Shown here piece by piece: positions 26,280 through 40,431 of a stretch of 64,000 bases of DNA. Origin of the DNA: Pelolinea sp. (GTDB lineage: Bacteria > Chloroflexota > Anaerolineae > Anaerolineales > Anaerolineaceae); NCBI GenBank assembly GCA_012797975.1, contig JAAZOD010000028.1, forward strand, positions 1 through 64,000. Direction: 5' to 3'. Both the position numbers and the translations under genes were made by a program. Position 1 is the stretch's first letter; every line of letters starts with the position of its first letter. The notes beneath the pieces are model-generated. The model made no database searches. It was not told where the DNA came from and saw nothing but the letters and a program-made list of their open reading frames with translations.

Positions 26280-27374
26280 TTATTTGGTTGGATATCCGCA
26301 GACATCCAGCGCAGCAGAAAGATGATTTTCAAGAGACTCTTCCGGCAGATCTTCAACATGCTCGATGATCAATGTCTTTTTGCCATGCTCTTCCAGGATC
26401 TTTTCATACCCTGCGTGCAGCTCCTCTTTGCTGGCATAAGCAAGATGTGGAGGAAGGTTCACGGAAAGGATCTTTTCAGGAAAGAATTCTTTTGCTTCGG
26501 TGAGGGAAATATTGCCAATAGGAGGAACGGTAAACGAATCGACGATATCAATCTTCGTTTCATGGATCTCTTTCGCCAAATGACGCAAGAGACCATCATG
26601 GTGAACGGCAAATTTTTTACCCGTACCTGCCAGAGCTTGAACATAGATATCATAAATGGGCATGCAGTATTCGCGGTAATACTTCGGCGAAATGAAGTTG
26701 GTGATGTTATCGACCAGCGTGATGTGCTGCGCAGGGCAGCCGGCAGTGATCTCAGCCGCTTTGAGATGGAAGCGGTGTTGAATATCGAGGTATTCCAGCA
26801 GCAGGTCCGGCTTGGTCTTGAAGTCGATCGCAGCCCGCTCCACCGAAGCCAGCTCTACCCAGGCACGTTGGAAAGGTGTTTTATCCACTACCGCAATGGT
26901 GGTGCCACTGGTGCCCAGGTCTTTTTGATCGCCTTCCAATTCATCGTAATTCGGCAGCATGCTTTCAAGCATTTTTTCAAAAATGAAATTGATAACGCGC
27001 CAATCTTCCACCTCTTTCACAAAAAATGTCTTCGCTGAATGAGTAAGCACATTCACCCCCGGATTGATGCCAACGATCGAATCCACGGTACCAAGCGGGG
27101 TTTCAAAGATATGCTGGATCATCCAGACACCATTTTGGCAAAAGCTCTTTTGGGTATAAGCAATATCCTGGTGAAATGGGTTGATCATGTGATCGAAGAA
27201 AAACATGGGTTTATAGGGAGGAACAATGTGCGTGATCCCCATACCCCGTTCAGTCAAACGGCGCAGCATGCCATGCGTGGGTCCGCCGCGCAGCCCGAGA
27301 GCAAAGACAACATCCACCTTATCTGGTTCTTGATTGTTGATTACCGATAAATGACGTTCATAAGGATTCATCAT
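26280..27374 (-). CDS. Uroporphyrinogen decarboxylase-fold protein (MtaA/CmuA-like methyltransferase)
   Basis: The 364-residue chain has the URO-D/methyltransferase fold in place of a heme enzyme: NPYERHL at the start, VDNITNFISPKYYREYCMPIYDIYVQ and FAVHHDGLLRHLAKEI (a candidate zinc-binding histidine pair), and a C-terminal TLIIEHVEDLPEESLENHL. Relatives transfer methyl groups between corrinoid proteins and cofactors. It is the last gene of the ABC transporter operon, 2 nt after the permease, and a corrinoid protein is encoded divergently 7 kb upstream. A zinc site of the usual HxCxnC type is not evident, so the methyl donor or acceptor is uncertain. Confidence 0.75.
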   Translation of the reverse strand: MMNPYERHLSVINNQEPDKVDVVFALGLRGGPTHGMLRRLTERGMGITHIVPPYKPMFFFDHMINPFHQDIAYTQKSFCQNGVWMIQHIFETPLGTVDSIVGINPGVNVLTHSAKTFFVKEVEDWRVINFIFEKMLESMLPNYDELEGDQKDLGTSGTTIAVVDKTPFQRAWVELASVERAAIDFKTKPDLLLEYLDIQHRFHLKAAEITAGCPAQHITLVDNITNFISPKYYREYCMPIYDIYVQALAGTGKKFAVHHDGLLRHLAKEIHETKIDIVDSFTVPPIGNISLTEAKEFFPEKILSVNLPPHLAYASKEELHAGYEKILEEHGKKTLIIEHVEDLPEESLENHLSAALDVCGYPTK

Positions 27375-27376
27375 GA

Positions 27377-28324
27377 TTATTCACCTTTGGTTTCTGGTTC
27401 GTTGGTTGCAATGGATGTCAAAAGCGTGGTTGATTTTCTGCTCTTGCGAACAGCACGGAACACCAAAGCAAAAATTGTGGTGAGGTAAGGCAGCATCAGC
27501 GTGAACTGAGAAGGAATGCCCATATTTTGGATGCGCAACGAAATTCCTTCGGCCAAACCAAAAAGTAAAGAGGTGATCGCCATGGTAATGGGATTTGAAC
27601 CTCCAAAAATCACCGCAGACAAAGCGATAAAACCACGCCCTGCGGTCATATCTTCCACGAACATTTTTAAATATCCCAATGAGAGATGCGCCCCTGCCAA
27701 TCCGCACATCACGGAGCAAATGACGTTCGCGATCCAGCGTATTTTGTTCACCTGGATACCGGTGGTTCCCAACGCCTCGGGATGCTCACCGGCAGCCCGA
27801 AAATAAAACCCATACGGTGTGCGATAGATGAGAAGCCAGAAAATAAAGATCATGACCCAGGAAATGTATACAAAGGCAGAATGGTTGTTGAACAACTGGT
27901 CAAGGATCGGAACATTATCCAAAAACGCAATATGGATGTTAGGGATGCCTTGGATGCGAGGATCACTAAAAGAACCGCGCACATTGAAGAACAAACGCGA
28001 GAAGAACACGGTCGCTTCCGAAGCCAACAGGTTGAGGGCAATTCCGACCACAAACACGTCTGCCTTCAAACGGATCGTGAACAACCCAAAAAGCAATCCA
28101 TAGATCACGGTTGCCATCAATGCAAAAGCGATGCCGACCAGGTAGCTTTCAAAGAGATAGCTTCCCAGTACGGCAAAAAAGGCACCGATCAACATGAAAC
28201 CTTCCAACGAAATGTTGAGGTCACCCGCACTCAAGCTGATCAATCCTCCCAATCCTGCCAGGATGAAAGGAGTGGCCATCCGCAAACCGGTACCTAAAAC
28301 ATCCAAAATAAAATCCAGGTTCAT
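27377..28324 (-). CDS. BMP-type ABC transporter permease (second subunit)
   Basis: The 315-residue protein has eight or more transmembrane helices and matches the branched-chain/ribose permease superfamily, subgroup found with BMP lipoproteins (nucleoside uptake in other bacteria). GLGGLISLSAGDLNISLEGFMLIGAFFAV lies near the start, and EHPEALGTTGIQVNKIRW is the ATPase coupling loop. The start overlaps the preceding permease by 4 nt (ATGA). The URO-D-like gene follows 2 nt after its stop. Confidence 0.9.
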   Translation of the reverse strand: MNLDFILDVLGTGLRMATPFILAGLGGLISLSAGDLNISLEGFMLIGAFFAVLGSYLFESYLVGIAFALMATVIYGLLFGLFTIRLKADVFVVGIALNLLASEATVFFSRLFFNVRGSFSDPRIQGIPNIHIAFLDNVPILDQLFNNHSAFVYISWVMIFIFWLLIYRTPYGFYFRAAGEHPEALGTTGIQVNKIRWIANVICSVMCGLAGAHLSLGYLKMFVEDMTAGRGFIALSAVIFGGSNPITMAITSLLFGLAEGISLRIQNMGIPSQFTLMLPYLTTIFALVFRAVRKSRKSTTLLTSIATNEPETKGE

Positions 28325-29388
28325 TGTTTCACCTCTTCATCCACCAGAATGACGTGTTTTCTTCTTCTGAACAGGATGGAAACGAATTCACGCCCAGTGA
28401 TAAACAGTATCAGTGCTGCAAGCAACACTCCGGTCAGGTCAGAAGGAACGCTGGCAACCTGTTCCATGCCCAAGGCACCGTTTTTAAAGATGCTGAAAAC
28501 AAAACTTACGGCAACGATCGCGATGGGATTGTTTTTCGCAAGCATGGCGATCAAAACCCCATCCCAACCATAGGGGCCTGCGATCGCTTCCCAGAAACGG
28601 TAATTGGAACCGCACACCAGCACCGCGCCGGCCAGCCCCGAAAGAAATCCACTAAGGACCATGGCCTTCATTTGATCCTTGCCAACGTTCACTCCGCCAT
28701 ATTGGGCAAAGCGCGGGTTCAAACCAATCATCTTCCAACGGTATCCTTGATTGGTGTAATTCAATATCCAGTAAATGATAGCTGCAGCCACCAAGGCAAA
28801 AACAATACCGGAGCGCAGATCGATGCTTTTGACCAGATAAGGGAGCGTTGCAGAATCCAGAATGGGAGGGGTGGTGCCGCTCCAGCGGGTGACATCGCGG
28901 AACGGGTAATTCGCCAGGTAGCTGGTGAACATAAAGAAAACCGAGTTCAGCATGATCGTGGAAATGACCTCATCCACTTTCCATTTCACCCGCATGTAAC
29001 CAGGAATGGCCGCCCCCAGAATGCCCATGACCACAGCAGCCAGGATACACAAAGGGAGATGGATATAGAGGGGAAGCCCCACCAATTTATACCCGACCAC
29101 CGCGGCCGCGATCGCACCCAGCTCGATCTGACCCTTCCCGCCCAAATTGTAAATACCGGCATTTGAAGCCACTGCAGCGCACAAAGCGGAAAGGATCAAC
29201 GCCATCGAGCGGTTCATGAGATTAGCAATGGCACTCACGTCGCCCATCGCGTACGAGAACATTGCGGAATACGCCAGCAGCGGATCCTTCCCGATCATTA
29301 AAATAATCAACGCGCCAAAGATCATCGTTGCTAAAAATACCCCTACGATCGAAATTAATGAGTTTGTAGATTTCTGTAGTTTTTTCAC
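28321..29388 (-). CDS. BMP-type ABC transporter permease (first subunit)
   Basis: This 355-residue permease pairs with the next gene product. It has about ten transmembrane helices, the segment NLGGKGQIELGAIAAAVVGY and the coupling loop LNPRFAQYGGVNVGKDQMKAM. Translation begins at GTG 29388; GGAG lies 7 nt upstream, inside the ATPase gene, and the two genes overlap by 4 nt (GTGA). Confidence 0.9.
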   Translation of the reverse strand: MKKLQKSTNSLISIVGVFLATMIFGALIILMIGKDPLLAYSAMFSYAMGDVSAIANLMNRSMALILSALCAAVASNAGIYNLGGKGQIELGAIAAAVVGYKLVGLPLYIHLPLCILAAVVMGILGAAIPGYMRVKWKVDEVISTIMLNSVFFMFTSYLANYPFRDVTRWSGTTPPILDSATLPYLVKSIDLRSGIVFALVAAAIIYWILNYTNQGYRWKMIGLNPRFAQYGGVNVGKDQMKAMVLSGFLSGLAGAVLVCGSNYRFWEAIAGPYGWDGVLIAMLAKNNPIAIVAVSFVFSIFKNGALGMEQVASVPSDLTGVLLAALILFITGREFVSILFRRRKHVILVDEEVKQ

Positions 29389-30956
29389 AGTGAACTCCCT
29401 ATTCTTGGGGTCATGCGTTTAGCACCGGTCATATAAAGTCCGACCTCTTCCGGGGTGACCTGATCGGGTATGAAATTCGCAACGATCTCTCCCTCATAGA
29501 TCACCAAAATGCGGTCACTCAACAGGAACAATTCATCCAGGTCAGCGGAAACCAGCAAGATGGCATTATTCGCTTCGCGTGCATCCAGCAACTGTTGGTA
29601 AATGAATTCAGAAGCGCCGATATCCAAACCGCGGGCAGGCTGAAGCACCAACAAACACGTATGCTTTCCGGAAAGTTCCCGGGCAACCACTACCTTCTGC
29701 AAATTACCTCCGGAAAGGGTCCCCACCACAGTTTCTGGACCCTGGGCAACGATGTTAAATTTTTTGATCAATTCGTCGGTATGTTTCTCGATCTCTTTCC
29801 AGTTCATCACACCCGGTTTCGAAATAAACGGAACGCAATCGTTCTGGTCGATCATCAAATTCTCTTTGATGGTTGCTTTAACGCTGGCGCCAGTGGCCAT
29901 ACGGTCCTCAGGGATCAAGCGGATCCCCAAGGCGCGCAGTTCGGAAGTGGATTTATTCAAAATGGAAGAACCATTGAAAAACACATCACCCTGGTCAATG
30001 GGAACCAAACCAGCCAATGCGTCCATCAATTCTGATTGACCATTCCCTTCCACACCAGCAACGCCAACAATCTCACCAGCTTTCACATCAAACGATACAT
30101 TCTTCACACAAAATGAAGTGAAGGTTTTCTTCACAGAAACATTCTTCGTTTCCAGAACAACAGATTGGTCATGACTTTTCTTTTGTTTTCCGACGGTCCA
30201 TAATTGATCGCGGCCAACAATAAGACGAGCCAGCTCCGGTTCAGTGGTATCTTTGGTATCCAACGTTACCAGCGTTTCACCCTTGCGCATGACAGTGACC
30301 TTGTTGGAAAGGGTCAGCACTTCTTTGAGTTTATGAGAAATGAAGATGATAGTTTTATCCTTCGCCACCATTTCTCGGCAGATATTGAACAGTTCCTCTG
30401 TCTCAAAGGGTGTCAGCACGGCCGTGGGTTCATCCAGGATCAGGATTTCGGCTCCGCGATAGATCGCTTTGATGATTTCAACACGTTGCTGGATACCGAC
30501 CGAGACATCCTGTACCAGTGAATGGAGCGGAATGGTCAAGTTGTAGTGCTCGCAGATCTCCTTCACCTTTTTTTCAGCCCGCTTGTTGTCAACAAAGACA
30601 AGATTCTGCCTGGGTTCATAACCCAAAATCACGTTTTGAAGAACCGTGAATGAGGGAACCAGCATAAAATGCTGGTGGACCATACCAATACCCAATCGTT
30701 TTGCTTCACGGGCAGAAGAGATCGAAACCTCTTTATCATTGAGATAGATTTTTCCTTCATCTGGCTGTTGAACACCATAGAGGATATTCATCAACGTCGA
30801 TTTACCCGCCCCGTTTTCCCCAACGATGGCATGGATCTCACCTTTCTTGACGACAAGATTGGCATTGCGATTTGCACGCACACCACCCTCAAATGTTTTG
30901 TTGATATTTTCCAAACGAAGTAGAGTTTCTGTTGTCATGAGTTCTCGATTTTCCAT
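29385..30956 (-). CDS. BMP-type ABC transporter ATP-binding protein (tandem ATPase)
   Basis: The 523 residues contain two ABC domains, like RbsA. The first has Walker A GENGAGKST and the aspartate box ILILDEPTAVLTP. The second has a degenerate Walker A (GVEGNGQSEL) but a good signature LSGGNLQKVVVAREL. It drives uptake through the two permeases that follow. The start at 30956 has no strong ribosome site; ATG 30938 (MTTETLL) is an alternative. It lies 57 nt downstream of the binding-protein gene. Confidence 0.9.
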   Translation of the reverse strand: MENRELMTTETLLRLENINKTFEGGVRANRNANLVVKKGEIHAIVGENGAGKSTLMNILYGVQQPDEGKIYLNDKEVSISSAREAKRLGIGMVHQHFMLVPSFTVLQNVILGYEPRQNLVFVDNKRAEKKVKEICEHYNLTIPLHSLVQDVSVGIQQRVEIIKAIYRGAEILILDEPTAVLTPFETEELFNICREMVAKDKTIIFISHKLKEVLTLSNKVTVMRKGETLVTLDTKDTTEPELARLIVGRDQLWTVGKQKKSHDQSVVLETKNVSVKKTFTSFCVKNVSFDVKAGEIVGVAGVEGNGQSELMDALAGLVPIDQGDVFFNGSSILNKSTSELRALGIRLIPEDRMATGASVKATIKENLMIDQNDCVPFISKPGVMNWKEIEKHTDELIKKFNIVAQGPETVVGTLSGGNLQKVVVARELSGKHTCLLVLQPARGLDIGASEFIYQQLLDAREANNAILLVSADLDELFLLSDRILVIYEGEIVANFIPDQVTPEEVGLYMTGAKRMTPRIGSSL

Positions 30957-31013
30957 TCATAAAGGATGTGACCAGGAAGGTCATCCTGGTCACATCAAAA
31001 ACAAAATTATGGT

Positions 31014-32081
31014 TTATTGAGGTCGAAATTCAGTAACGCTAATCTCGCCATTGGCGATCTTGGTCTGAAGAGCATTGATTTGAGAAACAATATCGGCCGG
31101 GACCAAATCTTCAGACATAACCAGGTACATGCCACCTTCTTTGACGCCCCAGTTGAACGTATCACCTTTCTTGAGTTCGCCATTCAGGTACATTTCGGTG
31201 AGGTCATGGATGGATACATCACAGGCCTTCATAACGCTGGCGATCGTGTAATCAGGGCTGAGCCAGCGCTGATCGAAACCACCACCAATGATCCAGGTTT
31301 CCGCGCCTTCATTCGCAGCATTGAAACCACCTTCACCACTCAAACCGGCATACATGAAGTTGATATCAGAACCCTTTTCAATAAGGGCCAAGGTAGCTTC
31401 TTTACCTTTGGCAGGATCAACCCAGGAACCAACGAAAATGGATTCCAGTTTTCCTTCGGGGGCAACATATTTCAAACCCTGTTCGTAACCCCAAAGTGCA
31501 CGCTGCATAACCGGAGAATCGACGCCACCAACGTATCCGATGGTTTGATCAGCATTGATGTACTTGAGGTCAGTGCGGGTGGTCATCAAACCGGCCAAAG
31601 CGCCAGCCAGGAAAGCACCTTCATGGTCCTTGTAGCCCAAGGAAACCACATCGGGAGAATCGAGAACGCCATCCAGATAGATATAGAGCGTATCAGGATT
31701 CTGGGGAGCAACCTCGAGCATGGCATCAATGGCTTCAAAACCAAGGACGAAGACGATATTATCGGTTTTGGCTGCATTGGTCAGCAAGGTCTTGTAGTTC
31801 TCATAGTCCAGTTTGCCTTCATAGGTATGGGTAACAGCGCCAAAGTCATCTTCGATCATTGTGATGCCGTTCAGGGCAATATCATAGAAAGCACGATCGC
31901 CGAAGGAATCTGCCACGAACACACCCACGGTAATGGGTTCAGTTTCAGCAGCAGGTTCTGCTTCCGTAGTGGTCTCGTCACTCGCAGCCGGCTCTGTCGT
32001 CTCAGCAGCGGGGCTGCATGCAGCAAGAAGCATTGTTGAAACAAGCGCTAACACAATGAGGGGTAACAAAATTTTCTTCAT
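31014..32081 (-). CDS. BMP family substrate-binding lipoprotein
   Basis: A lipoprotein signal (TMLLAACSPA) and a Glu/Ala/Thr spacer precede a binding domain of the basic membrane protein family: GVFVADSFGDRAFYDIALNGITMIEDDFG, VGYVGGVDSPVMQRALWGYEQGLKYV, FVGSWVDPAKGKEATLALIEKGSDINFMYAG and VMKACDVSIHDLTEMYLNGELKKGD. Known relatives bind nucleosides (PnrA, MED1) or other small cyclic compounds. AAGGA lies 6 nt before the ATG. It is the first structural gene after the regulator. Confidence 0.9.
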   Translation of the reverse strand: MKKILLPLIVLALVSTMLLAACSPAAETTEPAASDETTTEAEPAAETEPITVGVFVADSFGDRAFYDIALNGITMIEDDFGAVTHTYEGKLDYENYKTLLTNAAKTDNIVFVLGFEAIDAMLEVAPQNPDTLYIYLDGVLDSPDVVSLGYKDHEGAFLAGALAGLMTTRTDLKYINADQTIGYVGGVDSPVMQRALWGYEQGLKYVAPEGKLESIFVGSWVDPAKGKEATLALIEKGSDINFMYAGLSGEGGFNAANEGAETWIIGGGFDQRWLSPDYTIASVMKACDVSIHDLTEMYLNGELKKGDTFNWGVKEGGMYLVMSEDLVPADIVSQINALQTKIANGEISVTEFRPQ

Positions 32082-32177
32082 TTTTTTCCTTTTCTTCTTC
32101 CTAAATATAATTTATAAAATGTTTGTTGCGTCTATCTACAAGTTTGCTTGTGCACACCTCCTTCCTATAATTGGTTT

Positions 32178-33323
32178 TCATTTTTTTTGCTTACACCCGC
32201 AACTTTCTCGGATAACCAAAGCAGTTGGTATCGTGAGAGGTTGCCTGGAAACACTCTGTTTGTTCATAAGGGCCAGCAACAACCTGGCACTTTCCTCACC
32301 CATTTTTTCCGCGGAAATGGTGATGCTAGTCAGTGTAGGAGAAACGAAATTGCAGATATCAATATCGTTATAGCCAACGATGGCCACATCTTCCGGAATT
32401 CGAATGGCATGTTCGCGTAAAGCCTTCATTGCTCCAATCGCCAGCATATCGCCTGCTGCAAAAATTGCCGATGGCAAAAGATGTTCTTCGATCAGCTTCA
32501 GACCGGCCAAATACCCGGCCTGATAAGAAAATTCTTTTACATCAACCACGATCCGTTCATCGAATGATAGGCCGCCGTTCTCCAGCGCCTCTTGGTATCC
32601 TTCATACACCGTATGCAGAGTGGGAATATCGAGATTACCGGTCAGCATGGCGATCTTTTGATGGCCATGTCCGATGAGATGCTGTGTACCCTTGAATCCT
32701 GCGCCTTTGCCATCCAAGATTACGGAATATCCTTTTATGTTCGGACGATCAACAAAAACCAGCGGGATCGGAAAATCATAAAATTCTCCCGAATCAAAAT
32801 AATCTATGGTGCTTGGATAGGAGCCCATGGGAGAGAGCAGCATGCCATCCACACGTTTTGCAATGAGCATATCAAAAAACGCTTTGCCCAGTGTTGTATG
32901 CTCGCGGGTATCACAGGTGATCATGAGCACATTTTGTGCGCTCGCCACCTTGCCCGCCCCGCTTAATAGAGATGGATAGAATGGGTTTTGAAGATCGGGG
33001 ACGATGATGCCGAAGGTGTTCGTCGGCAATGTGTTGGTTGCCACCGTGGCAGAAGGGTCATACTCGAGCACCACAGAACCCAAGCCCTGGCGGGTGGATA
33101 TCAGGTTTGATCCTTCCAGCAGTCGATACGCCGCGCGAACCGTATGGAGGTTCACATTGAGGTGATCGGCCAGCGTGCGTACCGAGGGAAGGATATCGCC
33201 GGGTTTGATTTCATTGACAACGATCAACCAACGAATCTGGTCGGCAATTTGAGAAGCAAGAGAACAATTCTCATTCAAACCTACCTGAAGCCGCTTAAAG
33301 ATAATCTCAGTATGATTTTCCAT
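32178..33323 (-). CDS. GntR-LacI hybrid transcriptional regulator
   Basis: The first 75 residues are a GntR-type winged helix (IADQIRWLIVVNEIKPGDILPSVRTLADHLNVNLHTVRAAYRLLEGSNLI) and residues 100-381 a LacI/periplasmic-binding effector domain (GIIVPDLQNPFYPSLLSGAGKVASA, FVDRPNIKGYSVILDGKGAGFKGTQHLI, VAIVGYNDIDICNFVSPTLTSI). This AraR-like layout senses a sugar or similar ligand. The gene lies directly upstream of the BMP operon on the same strand, and a 32-bp palindrome begins 9 nt before its start, between it and the divergent corrinoid gene. That suggests autoregulation and control of both directions. No clear Shine-Dalgarno is visible. Confidence 0.88.
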   Translation of the reverse strand: MENHTEIIFKRLQVGLNENCSLASQIADQIRWLIVVNEIKPGDILPSVRTLADHLNVNLHTVRAAYRLLEGSNLISTRQGLGSVVLEYDPSATVATNTLPTNTFGIIVPDLQNPFYPSLLSGAGKVASAQNVLMITCDTREHTTLGKAFFDMLIAKRVDGMLLSPMGSYPSTIDYFDSGEFYDFPIPLVFVDRPNIKGYSVILDGKGAGFKGTQHLIGHGHQKIAMLTGNLDIPTLHTVYEGYQEALENGGLSFDERIVVDVKEFSYQAGYLAGLKLIEEHLLPSAIFAAGDMLAIGAMKALREHAIRIPEDVAIVGYNDIDICNFVSPTLTSITISAEKMGEESARLLLALMNKQSVSRQPLTIPTALVIRESCGCKQKK

Positions 33324-33437: not shown

Positions 33438-34073
33438 ATGAATGCTTCATTGAACGAAATCAACCAGGGGATCATCGAAGGAGATTTGAACACTGTTTCC
33501 ACTTTGGTAGAAAAAGCCTTGCAGGAAAAAGTTGAACCGCATGCCATTCTGGATGCCATGACCAGTGCCATGAGCGAAGTGGGACGCCTTTTTGAAACCG
33601 GTGAGTACTTTGTGCCCGAAATGCTGGTTTCAGCGCGCGCCATGCAAAACGGATTGGATATTCTGCAACCGGCATTGACCTTAAAAGATACCCAGCCCAA
33701 AGGGAAAGTCATATTAGGCACCGTCAAGGGCGATTTGCACGATATCGGCAAGAATCTGGTCGCCATTCTGCTGAAAGGTGCTGGCTACAAAGTGATCGAT
33801 CTTGGCTCGGATGTTGCGCCAGAGGCATTTGTCGAAAAGGTCAAGGAAAATGGAAAGTGCGTGGTTGCCCTTTCGGCGCTCTTAACCACCACCATGATCA
33901 ATATGAAAACAGTGATCGATGCACTCAGCACATCCGGTTTGCGCAAGGATGTCAAGATCATCGTTGGCGGTGCACCGGTAACCCAGGAGTTCTCCGCCCA
34001 GATCGGCGCGGACGGTTATGCATCGGATGCCAATAAAGCGGTGCGGCTAGTGGATCAGTTATTGGCACAATGA
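33438..34073 (+). CDS. Corrinoid-binding methyltransferase component (MtbC/MttC-like)
   Basis: The 211-residue protein has the two B12 domains of methylamine- and methoxy-type corrinoid proteins. A four-helix cap covers residues 5-85 (with GRLFETGEYFVPEMLVSARAM). The cobalamin fold covers 88-211, with the GDLHDIGKN motif (Asp99, His101 as lower cobalt ligand) and GGAPVTQEFSAQIGADGYASDA. It carries methyl groups between a substrate-specific methyltransferase and an acceptor enzyme. AAGGAGA lies 7 nt before ATG 33438. No MttB- or MtaB-type substrate methyltransferase lies beside it; the URO-D-like protein of the divergent operon is the likely partner. Confidence 0.9.
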   Translation: MNASLNEINQGIIEGDLNTVSTLVEKALQEKVEPHAILDAMTSAMSEVGRLFETGEYFVPEMLVSARAMQNGLDILQPALTLKDTQPKGKVILGTVKGDLHDIGKNLVAILLKGAGYKVIDLGSDVAPEAFVEKVKENGKCVVALSALLTTTMINMKTVIDALSTSGLRKDVKIIVGGAPVTQEFSAQIGADGYASDANKAVRLVDQLLAQ

Positions 34074-34300: not shown

Positions 34301-34963
34301 ATGGTTTCTTTTAGTCCTCTTCAAGCTGTGATCTGGGATATGGATGGCGTACTCATTGATTCACTACCCACCCACGTTGAGGCATGGCAAGTCATTCTGA
34401 AACGCTTTGGATACGATTACACCTATGAACAAATGACTCCCTTGTTCGGCATGACCGATGTGAATGTTTTAAAGACTCTCAGCGGTGAGCGCTTCACGGA
34501 AAGCGAACGGGGGGCGCTTGCTCAAGAAAAAGAAAGCATCTATCAGGACCTGATCAGCCAGAAGTTGCAACCCTTGCCCGGCGTCATTCCCTGGCTGGAA
34601 AATTTCCGCGCAGCCGGGTTGAAACAAGCGTTGGCCTCCTCCAGCACGGTAAAATCCATATCCATCATCCTCAACGCTCTGCAGATCAATTCTTTTTTCG
34701 ATGCGGTCATCAGCGGGGAAGGTGGACCCAGCAAGCCCAATCCAATGGTCTTTTTGCGGGCTGCAGAGAAGATGACCATCCCCCCCCAGCGTTGTCTGGT
34801 CGTAGAGGATGCGGTGGTGGGAGTGCAAGCAGCAAAAGCAGCGGGAATGCGCTGCCTGGCTGTCACGACCACCAACCCGGAAGAGAAATTGCAGCAGGCA
34901 GATCTCATCGTCGCACGGCTGAATCAGCTCACCATTTCCGCTCTCCAATCCATTCTTGCCTAA
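34301..34963 (+). CDS. HAD-superfamily phosphatase/phosphomutase (beta-PGM-like)
   Basis: The 220 residues show all HAD motifs: IWDMDGVLIDS (nucleophile Asp), LASSSTVKS (Thr/Ser motif), SKPNPMVFL (Lys) and CLVVEDAVVGVQAAKAAGM (acidic pair). The helical cap resembles beta-phosphoglucomutase and sugar-phosphate phosphatases. It lies between the corrinoid gene and the PTS operon, all on the plus strand. A role in removing phosphate from a PTS-derived intermediate is possible. AAAGG lies about 15 nt upstream, so the ribosome site is weak. Confidence 0.85.
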   Translation: MVSFSPLQAVIWDMDGVLIDSLPTHVEAWQVILKRFGYDYTYEQMTPLFGMTDVNVLKTLSGERFTESERGALAQEKESIYQDLISQKLQPLPGVIPWLENFRAAGLKQALASSSTVKSISIILNALQINSFFDAVISGEGGPSKPNPMVFLRAAEKMTIPPQRCLVVEDAVVGVQAAKAAGMRCLAVTTTNPEEKLQQADLIVARLNQLTISALQSILA

Positions 34964-35260: not shown

Positions 35261-35289
35261 ATTTCGCTGCCGGGCGAAATATTTTTTTT
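35261..35289 (+). terminator. Intrinsic terminator/attenuator upstream of the PTS operon
   Basis: A 7-bp stem (ATTTCGC/GCGAAAT) with a TGCCGG loop is followed by A and eight T residues. It lies about 100 nt before the first gene of the operon. Confidence 0.75.
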
Positions 35290-35389: not shown

Positions 35390-35818
35390 ATGCTTCCTGA
35401 ACTACCCACCAACATTATCGGCACCGTTCTTGGTATTTGGTTGATATTCTTTTTGTTGGCCAGAGAACAGTACAAACACATCATCGATAAAACTCAACGA
35501 ATCGTTCTGGATAATATTGAAGCGGCGCTAAAAGAAAACAAAGATCTTTCAGTAGATCAATTTTATGCACAAATCAACCCACTATGGGAGCAGATGGTTC
35601 CCCATACAGCAAAATTCATTCTTCATAAAACGGAACTCTACCCGGTTCCAGCAAAACTGGAAACTGTGCGCAGCCGTATGAAATTTTCGCCTGAATGGCT
35701 TGGTGCTTTTCTGAGTCTGCATGGCTACAAGTTGCAAGCCACACCCAGCCAGCAGGAAGAGATCAACCGCATTCTCTCCTTCAGCAAACATGATCCAACA
35801 CAACAAGGAGCGAAATGA
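35390..35818 (+). CDS. Small membrane-anchored protein of the PTS operon, unknown function
   Basis: The 142-residue protein has a single N-terminal transmembrane helix (IIGTVLGIWLIFFLLAREQY, about residues 9-28) and a cytoplasmic helical domain of about 110 residues with no motif I recognise. ATG 35390 has GGGAGG about 7 nt upstream; an earlier in-frame ATG lacks one. It precedes the PTS EIIC gene by 100 nt, so it may be an accessory or regulatory subunit of this transporter. Confidence 0.65.
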   Translation: MLPELPTNIIGTVLGIWLIFFLLAREQYKHIIDKTQRIVLDNIEAALKENKDLSVDQFYAQINPLWEQMVPHTAKFILHKTELYPVPAKLETVRSRMKFSPEWLGAFLSLHGYKLQATPSQQEEINRILSFSKHDPTQQGAK

Positions 35819-35918
35819 GAAAGGAGGTCGTAACCCCGGATCGACAACCAAAAATGTTTTCATTTTTATTTCGATAAGTTTTTTATTGATTCGCAGTTTA
35901 TAAAAAAGGAGTAATACA

Positions 35919-37337
35919 ATGAATCTTGATACCTTTCTGCAGAGTGTAAGTACTGTATTCAATACATTCGGCTCTGCCATCGTAGTACCGGTGATCATTA
36001 TCGTGATCTGTCTGGCTTTCGGCGTTGAGACTAAGAAAGCCATCACCGCTGGTTTGAACGCTGGCATCGGTTTGGTTGGCTTCGGTTGGGTTATCAACAG
36101 TTTTGCCCCCGTTATCGTCCCCGCCATCAATGCCTTCGTACAGAGCACTGGCCTCGACCTTCCCGTGGTTGACCTTGGCTGGCAGGCAGTTTCTGTGATT
36201 GCTTATGCAACCCGCGCCGGCATGGTCTTCCTGGTCTTCGGTCTGTTATTCCAGATCCTGCTCTACGTGACCAAATTCACCAATGTCTTTTTCCCTGGCG
36301 ATCTGTGGAACAATTATTCCTACATGTTCTGGGGTTCCATGGTTTACGTTATCTCCAACAACATGTGGCTCGCCATTGCTTGTATGTTCCTGCAGGTTCT
36401 CTATAACGTGATCTTCGTTGAGATGCTGAGCAAACGCTGGTCAACCTACTACGGTTACCCGAACTGCGTTATCCCCGCACTGCACATCGCGCCCGGAACT
36501 CCCTTTGCAGTGGCCGGCAACTGGATCCTCAACAAATTGGGTGCAAACAAGGTACGCTGGAGCCCCGAAAGCTTACGCAAGAACCTTGGTTTCATTGGTG
36601 AACCCATTTTCTTGGGCTTGATCCTTGGCTTCTTGATCGGTATCCTTGGTCACCTCAAAGATCTGGGCACGCTGGCTGCCTGGGGCAATATCCTCACCAT
36701 CGCCCTCAGCACCTCCGCCATCATGGCAATCTTCCCCCGTGTGGCTAACATCTTCTCTTCCGCTTTCATGCCACTGACCGAAGCCGCCCGCAAACGCACC
36801 GCCAAGAACGTGAAACAGGGTGATGAGATCTACATTGGTATCAACGACGCCACCGGTTACGGTGAGCCCGCCACCCTCATTTCCGGCATCCTCCTTATCC
36901 CCATCATGCTGCTGCTATGCGTTGTTCTGCCCGGCAACAAAGTCTTATTGCTGGCTGACCTGATCGCTATCGGTTACATCATCCAACCGTTCGTTGCAGT
37001 GACCAACGGCAACATCTTCAAAACCATCATCCTGGCCGCTATCTGGTTCTCGATCGGTCTGTATGTCTGCACCGCCACCGCTCCGATGTTCACCCAGGTC
37101 TATTCCCAATTCATCTCTGAACCCCTGGCCGAAGGCATCATGGTCACCTCTGGTATGATCGCCAACAAACCCATCGCTGGCGGTTTGATCTTCATGCCCA
37201 TCGTGAAATGGGGTTGGACTGCAGTAGGTGTTTTGACTGCCGTTTATATTCCGCTCTATATCACCTGGAAGAAGAACAAGAAGAAAGTTCATCAATTCAT
37301 GGAAGACCAGGCTGCATTGGATGTGGCATCCAAATAG
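35919..37337 (+). CDS. PTS galactitol-family EIIC permease
   Basis: The 472-residue membrane protein matches the galactitol (GatC) EIIC family. It has about ten hydrophobic segments, an early GVETKKAITAGLNAGIGLVGFGWVIN, the loop FPGDLWNNYSYMFWGSMVYV, and IGINDATGYGEPATLISGILLIPIMLL, a conserved substrate-site region in this family. It transports an alditol, sugar or sugar acid that is phosphorylated by the EIIA and EIIB proteins encoded next. AAAAAGGAG lies 7 nt before the ATG. The substrate cannot be assigned from sequence alone. Confidence 0.92.
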   Translation: MNLDTFLQSVSTVFNTFGSAIVVPVIIIVICLAFGVETKKAITAGLNAGIGLVGFGWVINSFAPVIVPAINAFVQSTGLDLPVVDLGWQAVSVIAYATRAGMVFLVFGLLFQILLYVTKFTNVFFPGDLWNNYSYMFWGSMVYVISNNMWLAIACMFLQVLYNVIFVEMLSKRWSTYYGYPNCVIPALHIAPGTPFAVAGNWILNKLGANKVRWSPESLRKNLGFIGEPIFLGLILGFLIGILGHLKDLGTLAAWGNILTIALSTSAIMAIFPRVANIFSSAFMPLTEAARKRTAKNVKQGDEIYIGINDATGYGEPATLISGILLIPIMLLLCVVLPGNKVLLLADLIAIGYIIQPFVAVTNGNIFKTIILAAIWFSIGLYVCTATAPMFTQVYSQFISEPLAEGIMVTSGMIANKPIAGGLIFMPIVKWGWTAVGVLTAVYIPLYITWKKNKKKVHQFMEDQAALDVASK

Positions 37338-37358
37338 TTTGGAAATCTAAACATACGC

Positions 37359-37386
37359 TTAGGGGCGCAGTGTACTGCGCCCCTAA
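37359..37386 (+). other. Perfect intercistronic hairpin between EIIC and EIIA
   Basis: Twelve base pairs (TTAGGGGCGCAG and complement) close a TGTA loop. No T-run follows, so it is more likely an mRNA-stabilising or processing element than a terminator. Confidence 0.7.
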
Positions 37387-37403
37387 CAGAAGGTACTTAA
37401 TAA

Positions 37404-37862
37404 ATGGAAGATATAAAGTATGATGCTCGACTCATTGAAATCAAGGTCAAAGCGAGCAAAAAAGAAGATGTTTTGAAGATCCTGGCTGATGATCTGAAAG
37501 CTTTGGATTATGTCGAAGATAATTTTTACGAACATGTAATCGAACGAGAAAAGAATTTTCCAACTGGATTGCCCACTGCCATTCCCATTGCACTTTGTCA
37601 CACAGAAGCACAATATGTCAAACATGCAGCCGTATGCCTTGCGACGCTTGAAAAACCAGTAAAATTCCAAGAGATGGGCACACCTCAAAATACGATCATG
37701 GCAGAGATGGTTTTTCTCATTGCAATGAAAAATCCCAAGGACCAGGTTCCCTGGCTGCGCAAGATGATGGAATTTTGCAAAGACCTTCACGGACTGGAAA
37801 CCATCCGTGATTCAGTTGATAAAGTGAAACTGGCCGATTTTCTACGCCAGCACCTGGCATAA
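37404..37862 (+). CDS. PTS EIIA component (fructose/mannitol/galactitol type)
   Basis: The 152 residues match PTS EIIA type 2. The phosphorylated histidine is His66 in PIALCHTEAQYVKHAA, and VFLIAMKNPKDQVPWLRKMMEF corresponds to the conserved helix of this fold. The protein takes phosphate from HPr and passes it to EIIB. AAGG lies 9 nt upstream of ATG 37404. It follows EIIC after the hairpin. Confidence 0.9.
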   Translation: MEDIKYDARLIEIKVKASKKEDVLKILADDLKALDYVEDNFYEHVIEREKNFPTGLPTAIPIALCHTEAQYVKHAAVCLATLEKPVKFQEMGTPQNTIMAEMVFLIAMKNPKDQVPWLRKMMEFCKDLHGLETIRDSVDKVKLADFLRQHLA

Positions 37863-37929
37863 AAATGCTCCATCCATCCCAATGACTGGAGTATAATTTC
37901 AAGATACTGTCTTCGGAGGACTTATATCT

Positions 37930-38241
37930 ATGGCAAAAAAGACTCTCAATATTCTAGCTGTGTGTGGCTCCGGCGTTGTATGCTCTTCCATGATCGCAAC
38001 CAGACTGGAAGACATCATGAAATCGCTTGGAGCGACAGCAAATGTTACTGGTTTACTTCCTAATTCTGTAGAATCGTATGTCGAGCGAGGTGGTATTGAT
38101 ATGGTCATCACCACCAGCCCCATTCCAGGTGACATTAAAGTTCCTGTGATCAACGGGGTCGCCCTGCTGAGCGGTTTTGGTGAAGAACAGTGCATCGAAG
38201 AGATCACGAAGGTAGCCCAAGAAATCCTGGCAACCAAGTAA
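37930..38241 (+). CDS. PTS EIIB component (galactitol type)
   Basis: The 103-residue protein begins with a strand and the phosphocysteine loop LAVCGSGVVCSSM (Cys12), as in GatB. The DMVITTSPIPGDIKVPVINGVALLSGFGEE segment is typical of lactose/galactitol-type EIIB folds. GGAGGAC lies about 10 nt before the ATG. A TATAAT at 37892-37897 could be an internal promoter. Separate EIIA, EIIB and EIIC chains follow the galactitol pattern. Confidence 0.9.
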   Translation: MAKKTLNILAVCGSGVVCSSMIATRLEDIMKSLGATANVTGLLPNSVESYVERGGIDMVITTSPIPGDIKVPVINGVALLSGFGEEQCIEEITKVAQEILATK

Positions 38242-38253
38242 AACTCTGACACT

Positions 38254-38289
38254 CACAAATAATCCCCGCGAACACGGGGATTATTTGTG
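38254..38289 (+). other. Perfect intercistronic hairpin between EIIB and the VOC gene
   Basis: A 15-bp stem (CACAAATAATCCCCG and complement) closes a CGAACA loop. No T-run follows on the plus strand. It is the second such element in the operon. Confidence 0.7.
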
Positions 38290-38317
38290 AATGACCTTTA
38301 TTAATAAACGGAGCATG

Positions 38318-38797
38318 ATGAATATCGATTTATCTCATATCAATCCCATTATTAAATTGACCAATCCCGACCAGGTTGGGATCGTCGTAGAAGACGCGAA
38401 CAGCGCTGCCTTATCCTTTGCGAAAGTTTTTGGAGCGGATCCTGTGGAGGTATTGGATTGGCCCGCCGCCGGTTTTGACCCGGAATCTTATTATTACGGC
38501 AAACCAGCCCATTGGAAAATGCGCGTTGGTTTTTTCCAAATTGGCAACCTGCAGTGGGAATTGATTCAACCGCTGGAAGGGCCCAACATTTTCACGGATT
38601 TCTTGAAAGAACATGGCCCCGGTTTACATCATATCCGCTTTACGGAACCTGATTTCGACCAGCATGCCGCGGCTTTACAGGCAGCCGGCATTCCCATGAT
38701 CTCCAACGGTAAAGGCATCCATAAGGTATCCCGTTGGGCATATTTCGACACACGCGCTGTGTTGAATGGATATCTCTTAGAGATGCGCAAGTTATAA
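38318..38797 (+). CDS. VOC-superfamily (glyoxalase/epimerase-like) protein
   Basis: The 159-residue protein has two beta-alpha-beta-beta-beta units of the vicinal oxygen chelate fold: QVGIVVEDANSAALSFAKVFG with WELIQPLEGPNIFTDFL, then HGPGLHHIRFT with DTRAVLNGYLLEM. Related single-domain proteins include methylmalonyl-CoA epimerase and several sugar-acid enzymes. Metal ligands of the usual His/Glu set are only partly visible (His in GLHHIRF, Glu near the C-terminus). The ATG at 38318 has GGAG 4 nt upstream; ATG 38315 is also possible. It lies between PTS and RuBisCO-like genes. Confidence 0.8.
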   Translation: MNIDLSHINPIIKLTNPDQVGIVVEDANSAALSFAKVFGADPVEVLDWPAAGFDPESYYYGKPAHWKMRVGFFQIGNLQWELIQPLEGPNIFTDFLKEHGPGLHHIRFTEPDFDQHAAALQAAGIPMISNGKGIHKVSRWAYFDTRAVLNGYLLEMRKL

Positions 38798-38825
38798 GCA
38801 ATTACTTCATTTCAAGGATCAAACT

Positions 38826-39971
38826 ATGAAACCCGAAGCTCCTTTTAATTTACAGTTAAGTGGCGAACGCTTCCATGTGCTTTATTCCATCTGGGGCAGC
38901 GAAGCGGAAGTGACAGCCTGCGCAAAAGCAATGACCATTGAGGAAACGGTAGAATATCCTGAAGATGTGCTTCCGGATGGCGATATTCGTGAAAAAATGA
39001 CCGGCCAGGTGGAAGATATTTCCCATGCAGAAGACCAGCGCTGGTCAGTGGAAATTTCGTACGCGGTGGAAACCACCTCTTTTGAGTTGCTTCAGTTTTT
39101 AAATGTAGTCTATGGAAATATCAGCATGATCACCAATATCCGTGCTGAATCCTTTACGTTGCCCCCTTCGCTAGCACGCTGCTTCAAAGGTCCTCGACTG
39201 GGGAAAAATGGATTGCGCAAACAATTGGGCGTTCCCGAACGCGCCATCACTGCCACAGCCACCAAACCGATGGGGCTCTCTTCCAAAGTTCTGGCAAAAA
39301 TGGCGTACGATTACGCGCTGGGCGGGCTGGATATCGTCAAGGACGATCACGGTTTGTCCGACCAACGTTTTGCTCCATACCAAGAACGCGTACGCCAGTG
39401 CGCTGATGCCGTAGCTGAAGCCAATGCAAAAACAGGTGGAAAGTGCATTTATTTCCCCTCTGTCACCGCTCCGGCAGACCAGGTAAAAGAACGCGCTTAT
39501 TTTGCCAAAGAGGTTGGGGCGGGAGGATTGTGTATCATCCCCTCTTTGATCGGTTGGGATACCACACGTATGCTGGCAGAAGATGATGCGCTCGGGCTAC
39601 CGATCATCTGCCATCCCTCTTTCCATGGCGCTTACAGCATGTACCGGCGTGGCGGTTTCTCTGCCCACATCCTTTATGCGCTCCTACCGCGCTTGATCGG
39701 AGCAGACATCAGCATTTTCCCCAATTACATTGGCCGTTTCTCCGGCACTCTGGAAGATTGCCAATCGACCTTGCGCGGCTGCGCCGATCCCATGGGTCAT
39801 ATCAAATCCTGTTTTGGAGCAGCCGGGGGTGGGGTAACACTGAATACCCTACCTGAACTTTCCACCCAATATGGACACGACATCGTTTACCTGATCGGTG
39901 GGGGATTGCATCACGGTGATTCGCTGGTGGAATCTTGCCGTGCCTTCCGCCATTTTGTTGACACTCATTAA
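38826..39971 (+). CDS. RuBisCO-like protein (form IV)
   Basis: The 381 residues cover both RuBisCO domains. The active-site loop is GGLDIVKDDHGLSDQ: the lysine corresponding to carbamylated K201 (K172) and the following DD are kept, but the metal-ligand glutamate is His175. The K175-equivalent is kept (K147 in TATKPMGLS), while the K177 position is lost. Loop 6 lysine is replaced (FPNYIGRFSG, Arg304) and the HR pair is HPSFHGA. Phosphate-binding glycines are intact (AAGGGV, IGGGLHHG). Carboxylation is therefore not expected; an isomerase, enolase or decarboxylase acting on a phosphorylated keto compound is more likely. It starts 28 nt after the VOC gene. Confidence 0.93.
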   Translation: MKPEAPFNLQLSGERFHVLYSIWGSEAEVTACAKAMTIEETVEYPEDVLPDGDIREKMTGQVEDISHAEDQRWSVEISYAVETTSFELLQFLNVVYGNISMITNIRAESFTLPPSLARCFKGPRLGKNGLRKQLGVPERAITATATKPMGLSSKVLAKMAYDYALGGLDIVKDDHGLSDQRFAPYQERVRQCADAVAEANAKTGGKCIYFPSVTAPADQVKERAYFAKEVGAGGLCIIPSLIGWDTTRMLAEDDALGLPIICHPSFHGAYSMYRRGGFSAHILYALLPRLIGADISIFPNYIGRFSGTLEDCQSTLRGCADPMGHIKSCFGAAGGGVTLNTLPELSTQYGHDIVYLIGGGLHHGDSLVESCRAFRHFVDTH

Positions 39972-39991
39972 GTATTTTTGGAGGTATTTCC

Positions 39992-40366
39992 ATGTCTATT
40001 ATTCATAAAGCAACCAGCAAGCCAACCTTCCTGCAATGGGAGGGGATTCCCGTGAGAGATTACGGACGGGAAGGTTTTGAAGGCGTTTCCCGCCAGGTCA
40101 TCATCGGCCCGCATGACGGTTCGCTGAATTTTGCAATCCGCTATTTCCGTGTTGAACCTGGCTGCAGCACCCATCTGGACCAACACGAACATGAGCATGG
40201 TGTGGTCATCGTGCACGGGCGTGCCCGGCTGCAACTCAATGATACATTCTATGAAATGGAACCCTGGGACAGTGTCTTTATCAGCGGAAACGACATTCAT
40301 CAATTTAGCTGTATCTCTGAAGAGTCCATGGGATTTTTATGCGTTATTAAACCTCACCTAACCTGA
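39992..40366 (+). CDS. Single-domain cupin
   Basis: This 124-residue cupin has both motifs of the metal-binding barrel: GCSTHLDQHEHEHGVVIVHGRARL (three candidate histidine ligands) and EPWDSVFISGNDIHQFSC. In catabolic operons such proteins are often sugar-phosphate or sugar-acid isomerases, epimerases or decarboxylases. GGAGG precedes the ATG by 8 nt, and the gene begins 20 nt after the RuBisCO-like gene. It is the last gene of the operon, which ends at a strong terminator. Confidence 0.88.
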   Translation: MSIIHKATSKPTFLQWEGIPVRDYGREGFEGVSRQVIIGPHDGSLNFAIRYFRVEPGCSTHLDQHEHEHGVVIVHGRARLQLNDTFYEMEPWDSVFISGNDIHQFSCISEESMGFLCVIKPHLT

Positions 40367-40396: not shown

Positions 40397-40431
40397 AAAA
40401 GGGACTGACATGTACGCCAGTCCCTTTTTTT
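40397..40431. terminator. Terminator of the PTS/RuBisCO-like operon
   Basis: AAAAGGGACTG and its complement (11 bp) with a 10-nt loop are followed by seven T residues in all on the plus strand. The minus strand also has a short T-tail, serving mgtA. Confidence 0.9.

Follow-up and report, generated by a model that had tools for sequence, protein, structure and literature searches.

Recurrence of a phosphorylating importer together with a RuBisCO-like protein (RLP) in anaerobic Chloroflexota suggests an undescribed route of sugar breakdown. In Pelolinea sp., a galactitol-type PTS is encoded with a VOC protein, an RLP and a cupin at positions 35390-40366 (+) of the window, i.e., the whole stretch of 64,000 nucleotides that was analysed, and a profile search of the window confirmed this set (Table 1). 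It may be a sugar-catabolic operon in which the PTS would phosphorylate a ketose-level sugar and the RLP would take over the product. With all the steps described below included, this proposal falls just short of an even chance. It starts from what was observed (which genes are present, how they are conserved and to which family each protein belongs) and leads to a substrate and reactions that we infer.

The operon and its boundaries

The sequence-only reading had placed EIIC, EIIA, EIIB, VOC, RLP and cupin genes on one strand, closed by a terminator. Each family was indeed matched by Pfam, and all genes lie on the + strand with gaps of 20-67 nt (66, 67, 49, 28 and 20 nt in gene order, the VOC gene being taken as its ORF). 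The terminator was recovered as a hairpin and T-run after the cupin gene. The operon encodes neither a dehydrogenase nor a kinase, in keeping with a PTS product that is already at the ketose-phosphate level. Hairpins are also found in the EIIC-EIIA gap of the related operons L035 and L115, where their sequence is unrelated to that of the window, and in the EIIB-VOC gap of both.

Table 1 Features of the operon and its surroundings in the window
Feature	Positions	Strand	Match or remarks
HAD gene	34301-34963		Upstream of operon
'DUFx', one N-terminal hydrophobic segment	35390..35818	+	ORF from 35351; homologues start at 35390
PTS EIIC, galactitol (AG) type	35919..37337	+	PF03611, 210 bits
Intergenic hairpin, EIIC-EIIA gap	37358..37387	.	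12-bp perfect stem, -24 kcal/mol
PTS EIIA	37404..37862	+	PF00359, 86 bits
PTS EIIB, CGSG phosphocysteine loop	37930..38241	+	PF02302, 32 bits
Intergenic hairpin, EIIB-VOC gap	38254..38290	.	~16-bp stem, -27 kcal/mol
VOC-fold protein	38318..38797	+	PF13669, 57 bits; ORF from 38291, homologues start near 38318
RuBisCO-like protein, KDDH superclade	38826..39971	+	PF00016, 90 bits
Single-domain cupin, Rru_A2000 type	39992..40366	+	PF07883, 39 bits
Intrinsic terminator, operon end	40400..40430 (approx.)	+	Hairpin GGGACTG..CAGTCCC then T7, 3' of cupin

A HAD phosphatase had also been noted ahead of the operon. The gene is real but probably forms a separate unit in the window. Its distance from the operon is about 390-430 nt, and it was rejected as a member because a terminator-like hairpin with a T-run lies in between (35261-35288) and no HAD gene adjoins the operons of L115 and L035. 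Elsewhere, L096 has a related HAD gene directly 3' of its RLP, and in L024 a HAD gene with weak similarity lies further upstream.

The gene beginning at the operon start given by the earlier reading, 35390, had not been named there. It encodes a small membrane protein of 142 aa ('DUFx') that had no match in Pfam or NCBIfam and is present in 4 of 301 genomes of the host's order. Homologues are found in the PTS-RLP operons L035, L115 and L135 and in the GAT-PTS operon L169. An RLP-specific role was rejected, as L169 has 'DUFx' in a PTS operon without RLP; the protein is probably an accessory of the window's PTS subfamily.

PTSs of the AG family mostly carry alditols or ascorbate, which speaks against a ketose as cargo. 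The EIIC reaches 245 bits with TIGR00827 (cut-off 542) and is therefore not GatC itself. The curated GatA and GatB models give 57 bits for the EIIA (cut-off 139) and 26 bits for the EIIB (cut-off 95), and galactitol models outscore ascorbate models for both. All three components belong to the galactitol family, like GatABC, but stay under the curated cut-offs. The operon also differs from the galactitol system in lacking genes for galactitol-1-P dehydrogenase, tagatose kinase and aldolase, and in having the small membrane protein, the VOC protein and the RLP in addition. Enzyme I is encoded in the host genome.

Recurrence in the Anaerolineales

The sequence-only reading had allowed for a pairing peculiar to this genome. 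Instead, PTS-VOC-RLP was found in four other Anaerolineales genomes (L115, L035, L024 and L027, the last at a contig edge with EIIB-VOC-RLP only), and is hence conserved in five genomes, five genera and two families. The five PTS-VOC-linked RLPs form one clade (support 100/98). EIIB is 61-70% identical to its counterparts in related operons, and the VOC protein 45-50% to those of four. In a scan covering the host's order (301-genome sample), an RLP lay within 10 kb of 4/5 EIICs with at least 50% identity and of 2/53 more distant EIICs (Fisher p = 1.7e-4, with kinship not corrected).

None of the four further genomes from the host's genus has an RLP of the window's kind, as might be expected if the genes were chance or hitchhiking neighbours with no joint function. 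Such an explanation is very improbable, given that the gene order is the same in five genera, the EIIC is 74-75% identical between the window and three other operons, and other RLPs have become linked to a PTS independently. Indeed, EIICs of the window's subfamily have further RLP neighbours, from an independent branch as well as from a distant RLP clade. That the PTS is paired with three or more separate lineages of RLP suggests that enolisation chemistry is applied to PTS products more generally. The 'PTS' label of L031 in the tree was discounted, its source being a stray EIIA-like ORF.

Some EIIC relatives point to another type of route, in which an alditol or aldose enters through the PTS, the ketose phosphate is made by enzymes whose genes lie elsewhere, and the RLP carries out another enolisation (enolase, epimerase or dehydration) in a pentitol-type pathway. 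L169, with a closely related EIIC and no RLP, has two alcohol-dehydrogenase-type genes, transketolase halves and a class II aldolase/epimerase, and the close EIIC relatives L145 and L146 are accompanied by RpiB, an aminotransferase and a distant RLP. This route is unlikely for the window, since the sequenced parts of the PTS-VOC-RLP operons contain no dehydrogenase or RpiB genes, and the RLP keeps the residues common to its superclade.

In a class-wide scan with PF00016, in which the host's order was thinly sampled, 116 of the 396 genomes had an RLP or RuBisCO. No RLP relatives were found among viral contigs. The literature search returned no description of a PTS-fed RLP pathway, nor any work of relevance in which RLP and PTS are linked.

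Family placement and likely chemistry of the RLP

The best PDB sequence match of the RLP is 3qfw of R. palustris (237 bits), presumably RLP1 (RPA2169), which is also the nearest solved fold to its AlphaFold model (pLDDT 88.5; rmsd 1.8). In the tree, the RLP groups with 3qfw and with cupin- or MtnA-linked RLPs (split support 100, stem 1.43), and the same split sets the 3qfw-containing superclade apart from MtnW and OiaX. Scores with the curated MtnW models are 147 bits (cut-off 513.6) and 189 bits (cut-off 409). By score and by tree, the RLP belongs with neither MtnW nor OiaX. Membership of the MtnW clade, named earlier as a possible objection, is not borne out; nor does a methionine-salvage set lie beside the RLP. 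Other members of the superclade often neighbour MtnA and split transketolases, and once mtnK-mtnA. Such MtnA-transketolase-RLP clusters occur in many phyla; they share the RLP superclade of the window but have transketolase halves and MtnA where the window has PTS and VOC.

The candidate catalytic residues K147, K172-D-D-H175, H263 and R304 are kept. KDDH is found in 10/11 members of group A1, and KEDH in the remaining one. RLPs of the DeepYkr clade from R. rubrum and R. palustris are 5-methylthioribulose-1-P 1,3-isomerases, form both the xylulose and the ribulose epimers, and have the cupin Rru_A2000 or a homologue as partner (PMC5893883; PMC4958253). The closest kin of the window RLP are of the KDDH type, and those among them that have been characterised are 1,3-isomerases; isomerisation is therefore favoured over decarboxylation. 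At eight positions that are conserved in the rest of the superclade, the PTS-linked clade has other residues, including I for G302 near R304, and its reaction may therefore have shifted.

The VOC protein scores 37.5 bits with the methylmalonyl-CoA epimerase model TIGR03081 (cut-off 115), and its nearest PDB entry is 3gm5 (77 bits). It is proposed to be a sugar-phosphate epimerase. In Azospirillum, a homologous VOC gene adjoins an OiaX-like RLP, a neighbourhood that would suit a decarboxylating RLP acting on a 3-keto sugar acid phosphate, like OiaX, or like UlaD for imported ascorbate, with an acid or lactone as PTS cargo. Moreover, PF03611 takes in ascorbate EIICs as well. However, the tree places the RLP at a great distance from OiaX-type RLPs, the OiaX model gives it 71 bits (cut-off 700), KDDH stands where the OiaX-like reference has KDDE, EIIA and EIIB fit galactitol better than ascorbate models, and the operon contains no lactonase gene. 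Decarboxylation of 3-oxo-isoapionate-4-phosphate by OiaX-type RLPs is established (PMC6302742), and the D-apionate pathway likewise employs an RLP on a phosphorylated sugar derivative, but it relies on a TRAP transporter and an acid-sugar kinase instead of a PTS. Decarboxylation is thus improbable here.

The cupin brings the MTA-isoprenoid shunt (RLP Rru_A1998 and cupin Rru_A2000) into consideration. Its PDB matches are 3ibm (69 bits) and 3jzv, which is Rru_A2000 (67 bits), and His 65, 67, 69 and 103 are conserved. As in the shunt, RLP and cupin are encoded together, and both match in superclade and family. In a variant of it, the two would process 5-methylthioribulose-1-P, made by MtnA from the cell's own MTA, to DXP and methanethiol, the PTS being incidental. 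The host does encode MtnA (about C4:110862-111857, 399 bits), in a block that, by reading of the sequence, also holds a PfkB-type kinase and an SAH-hydrolase-like gene. MtnA was nevertheless rejected as a discriminator, matches being found in 14/14 genomes tested. It does not lie near the RLP, whose company is PTS and VOC and not an MtnP and MtnA feed. Furthermore, no match to TIGR01326 (O-acetylhomoserine sulfhydrylase) was found at 1e-20 in the host genome, which is 98.5% complete, and ordinary methionine salvage is therefore unlikely despite enzyme I and MtnA. The cupin is 47% identical to that of the PTS-RLP operon L135 but occurs in just one of the five PTS-VOC-RLP operons, that of the window (the contig of L024 ends shortly after the RLP); the conserved partners of the RLP are PTS and VOC. 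In genome G714, a second RLP lies next to MtnA, which makes a different job for the PTS-linked RLP probable. On these points, the shunt variant is improbable.

The proposed route and its meaning

The PTS-fed pathway can be drawn as follows. The PTS would import and phosphorylate a ketose-level sugar to a ketose 1-phosphate; candidates are a C5-substituted ribulose, e.g., the 5-deoxy or 5-methylthio form, or an unsubstituted pentulose. Acting as a 1,3-isomerase, the RLP would use enolisation to shift the carbonyl from C2 to C4 and so turn the molecule end for end; the resulting ketose, of xylulose or ribulose type, would carry its phosphate at C5. The C3 epimers may be interconverted by the VOC protein, and in the window's genome the cupin may take off a C1 substituent. 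The products would enter pentose phosphate or DXP pools. This detailed version, set within a broader association of galactitol-type PTSs with different RLP clades that evolved repeatedly in Anaerolineales, is held tentatively, at somewhat below an even chance. Of the earlier suggestion that an imported sugar is phosphorylated on entry and then isomerised or decarboxylated by the RLP, the conserved unit stands and decarboxylation is disfavoured; the PTS product as RLP substrate is still the best reading.

The route resembles the 5-deoxyribose/DHAP shunt, in which C5-substituted ribose is salvaged via ribulose 1-phosphate. That shunt comprises a kinase or phosphorylase, MtnA and a class II aldolase, and some of its clusters contain sugar transporters (PMC6079011). 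It differs in using a kinase where the window has a PTS, and aldolase cleavage where RLP isomerisation is proposed.

For many families of form IV RuBisCO, a function has yet to be assigned. As the PTS product is likely the RLP substrate, the function of the whole RLP clade could be assigned with one uptake assay and one enzyme assay. The proposed enzyme is a relative of the CO2-fixing enzyme that would rearrange an imported sugar phosphate. If this is true, RLPs would serve anaerobes in a further branch of sugar catabolism, beyond sulfur salvage and apionate use.

Operon layout and neighbouring genes

The genome comprises 2.57 Mb in 35 contigs and is 98.5% complete; the window lies on contig C11. 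The sequence-only reading had described an operon of EIIC, EIIA, EIIB, VOC, RuBisCO-like protein (RLP) and cupin genes closed by a terminator. This arrangement stood, with a clear terminator 3' of the cupin gene, but a seventh gene at the 5' end had gone unnamed. Its product has a single N-terminal hydrophobic segment and no Pfam or NCBIfam match. Of 301 genomes, four encode this membrane protein. Three have it in a PTS-RLP operon; in the fourth it lies in a PTS operon that lacks an RLP gene and carries genes for transketolase halves, two alcohol dehydrogenases and a class II aldolase. Since it occurs in both kinds of operon, it is called a putative PTS accessory protein. Strong hairpins lie in the same two intergenic gaps at L035 and L115, related loci in other genomes, with unrelated sequences; in the three operons they perhaps provide segmental mRNA stabilisation. 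The BMP-type importer, URO-D-family and corrinoid protein genes are probably a separate methyl-transfer system.

Features of the window and gene orders at PTS-RLP loci (L) of other genomes
Locus	Coordinates	Strand	Content
Window	26280-33323	-	BMP-type ABC importer, URO-D-family protein
Window	33438-34073	+	methyltransferase-type corrinoid protein, divergent from the importer block
Window	35261-35288		terminator-like hairpin and T-run, 5' of the seven-gene set
Window	35390-40366	+	seven genes: 142-aa membrane protein, EIIC, EIIA, EIIB, VOC, RLP, cupin
Window	37358-37387		strong hairpin after EIIC
Window	38254-38290		strong hairpin after EIIB
L115, L035			SorC regulator, membrane protein, EIIC, EIIA, EIIB, VOC, RLP
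L024			SorC, EIIC, EIIA, EIIB, VOC, RLP; near contig end
L027			EIIB, VOC, RLP; at contig edge
L096			EIIA, EIIB, EIIC, RLP, HAD
L135	3492-9440		EIIC, cupin, membrane protein, EIIA, EIIB, SorC, RLP nearer MtnW; downstream, by sequence reading, PdxA-like, class II aldolase, two alcohol dehydrogenases, HPr, SIS-domain
L141, L144			PTS, class I/II aminotransferase, RpiB (Pfam-tested in L144), RLP of another clade
L145, L146			PTS, RLP of the same clade as in L141/L144

Conservation of the PTS-VOC-RLP gene set

Relatives of the window RLP, at 46-53% identity, occur in further genera of the host's family and order; the four other genomes of the host genus have none. In the neighbourhood search proposed with the sequence-only reading, the set recurs at L115, L035, L024 and, in part, L027. 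Identity across these operons is 46-51% to the window RLP and 45-50% among the VOC proteins. For EIIC, identity to the window protein reaches 74-75% (L115, L035, L024), 56% (L096) and 52% (L145, L146). EIIC homologues from 301 genomes of the host order split into two groups, at ≥52% or ≤35% identity. An RLP gene lies within 10 kb of EIIC in 4/5 of the close group vs 2/53 of the distant one (Fisher p = 1.7e-4, uncorrected for kinship).

Other RLPs have similar partners. The L135 RLP scores 380 bits against NF007095 (cut-off 409). L141, L144, L145 and L146 pair one distant RLP clade with two aminotransferase families, a class III enzyme and RpiB being read from sequence at L145. L032 and L147 are further cases. 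From these loci and the tree, galactitol-type PTSs thus adjoin RLPs from three or more distinct branches.

RLP identity and methionine salvage

The window RLP missed the cut-offs of the curated MtnW and OiaX models by wide margins. In a 125-row tree, the phylogenetic check suggested earlier, it lies outside both, grouping with the R. palustris RLP structure 3qfw in a KDDH-motif superclade split from MtnW, OiaX-like and other RLPs at support 100. A careful superclade tree unites the five PTS-VOC RLPs in a single clade (100/98). The AlphaFold model (pLDDT 88.5) also matches 3qfw best (rmsd 1.8). In the alignment, K147, KDDH 172-175, H263 and R304 are kept; on our reading, R304 would correspond to the loop-6 lysine of RuBisCO. 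The PTS clade deviates at eight positions otherwise conserved in the superclade, including I302 near R304, and the I302 change is shared by the L096 RLP, whose PTS linkage is independent.

Split transketolase genes are the commonest superclade neighbours (65 of 98 members), and MtnA is often present. An MtnA, transketolase N, transketolase C, RLP cluster is widespread (L022, L041, L042, L093, L154 and many others) in Bacillota, Spirochaetota, Nitrospirota, Pseudomonadota, Planctomycetota and more, with mtnK present once. On a Mariluticola plasmid, mtnK and mtnA lie side by side with genes for a sugar ABC importer subunit, transketolase halves and an RLP. The widespread cluster suggests a so far undescribed route for 5-methylthioribose or 5-deoxyribose, ending in a transketolase-type step.

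DeepYkr RLPs of R. rubrum and R. palustris convert 5-methylthioribulose-1-P to 1-methylthioxylulose-5-P and 1-methylthioribulose-5-P (3:1), after which a cupin step frees the methylthio group and yields DXP (PMC5893883; PMC4958253). The window cupin keeps the histidines common to its family and matches 3ibm (69 bits), 3jzv, which is Rru_A2000 (67 bits), and 3kgz (52 bits). The window RLP and cupin might then serve methionine salvage. This is disfavoured because no O-acetylhomoserine sulfhydrylase was found in the 98.5% complete genome and because the conserved RLP partners are PTS and VOC, not cupin. Moreover, one compared genome (G714) carries both a PTS-VOC RLP and an MtnA-linked RLP. The window genome's MtnA gene is far from the RLP and, by sequence reading, has a PfkB-type kinase gene and an AhcY-like one next to it.

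Proposed sugar phosphate pathway

The operon proteins are all of known families; their combination and the pathway are without description in the literature searched. That search returned no PTS-to-RLP link; subscription papers were mostly beyond reach, and absence is not proven. VOC relatives at about 200 bits are found in other sugar-type operons (L161-L166). The companion genes there, read from sequence, encode a DegT-like aminotransferase, a GntR regulator, an SDR and a class II aldolase, together with a Pfam-tested xylose-isomerase-like protein. Sugar ABC importers lie near several of these operons. In Azospirillum, a weaker VOC homologue (38 bits) adjoins an OiaX-like RLP, a four-carbon acid sugar kinase and a TRAP transporter.

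The gene set, its conservation and the protein families are observed, and the genome encodes enzyme I. The PTS would make a ketose 1-phosphate, and the RLP would shift the carbonyl from C2 to C4. VOC may equilibrate the C3 epimers arising in the R. rubrum-type reaction, and the cupin, present in the window genome, could take off a C1 substituent. The PTS-VOC-RLP operons hold no dehydrogenase or kinase gene, in keeping with import that directly yields a product at the ketose-phosphate level. The full pathway remains a tentative reading, which we rate as somewhat short of probable. Candidate substrates are 5-deoxyribulose, 5-methylthioribulose and a plain pentulose; E. coli is known to excrete 5-methylthioribose; 5-deoxyribose, too, has been proposed to be excreted (PMC5893883; PMC6079011).
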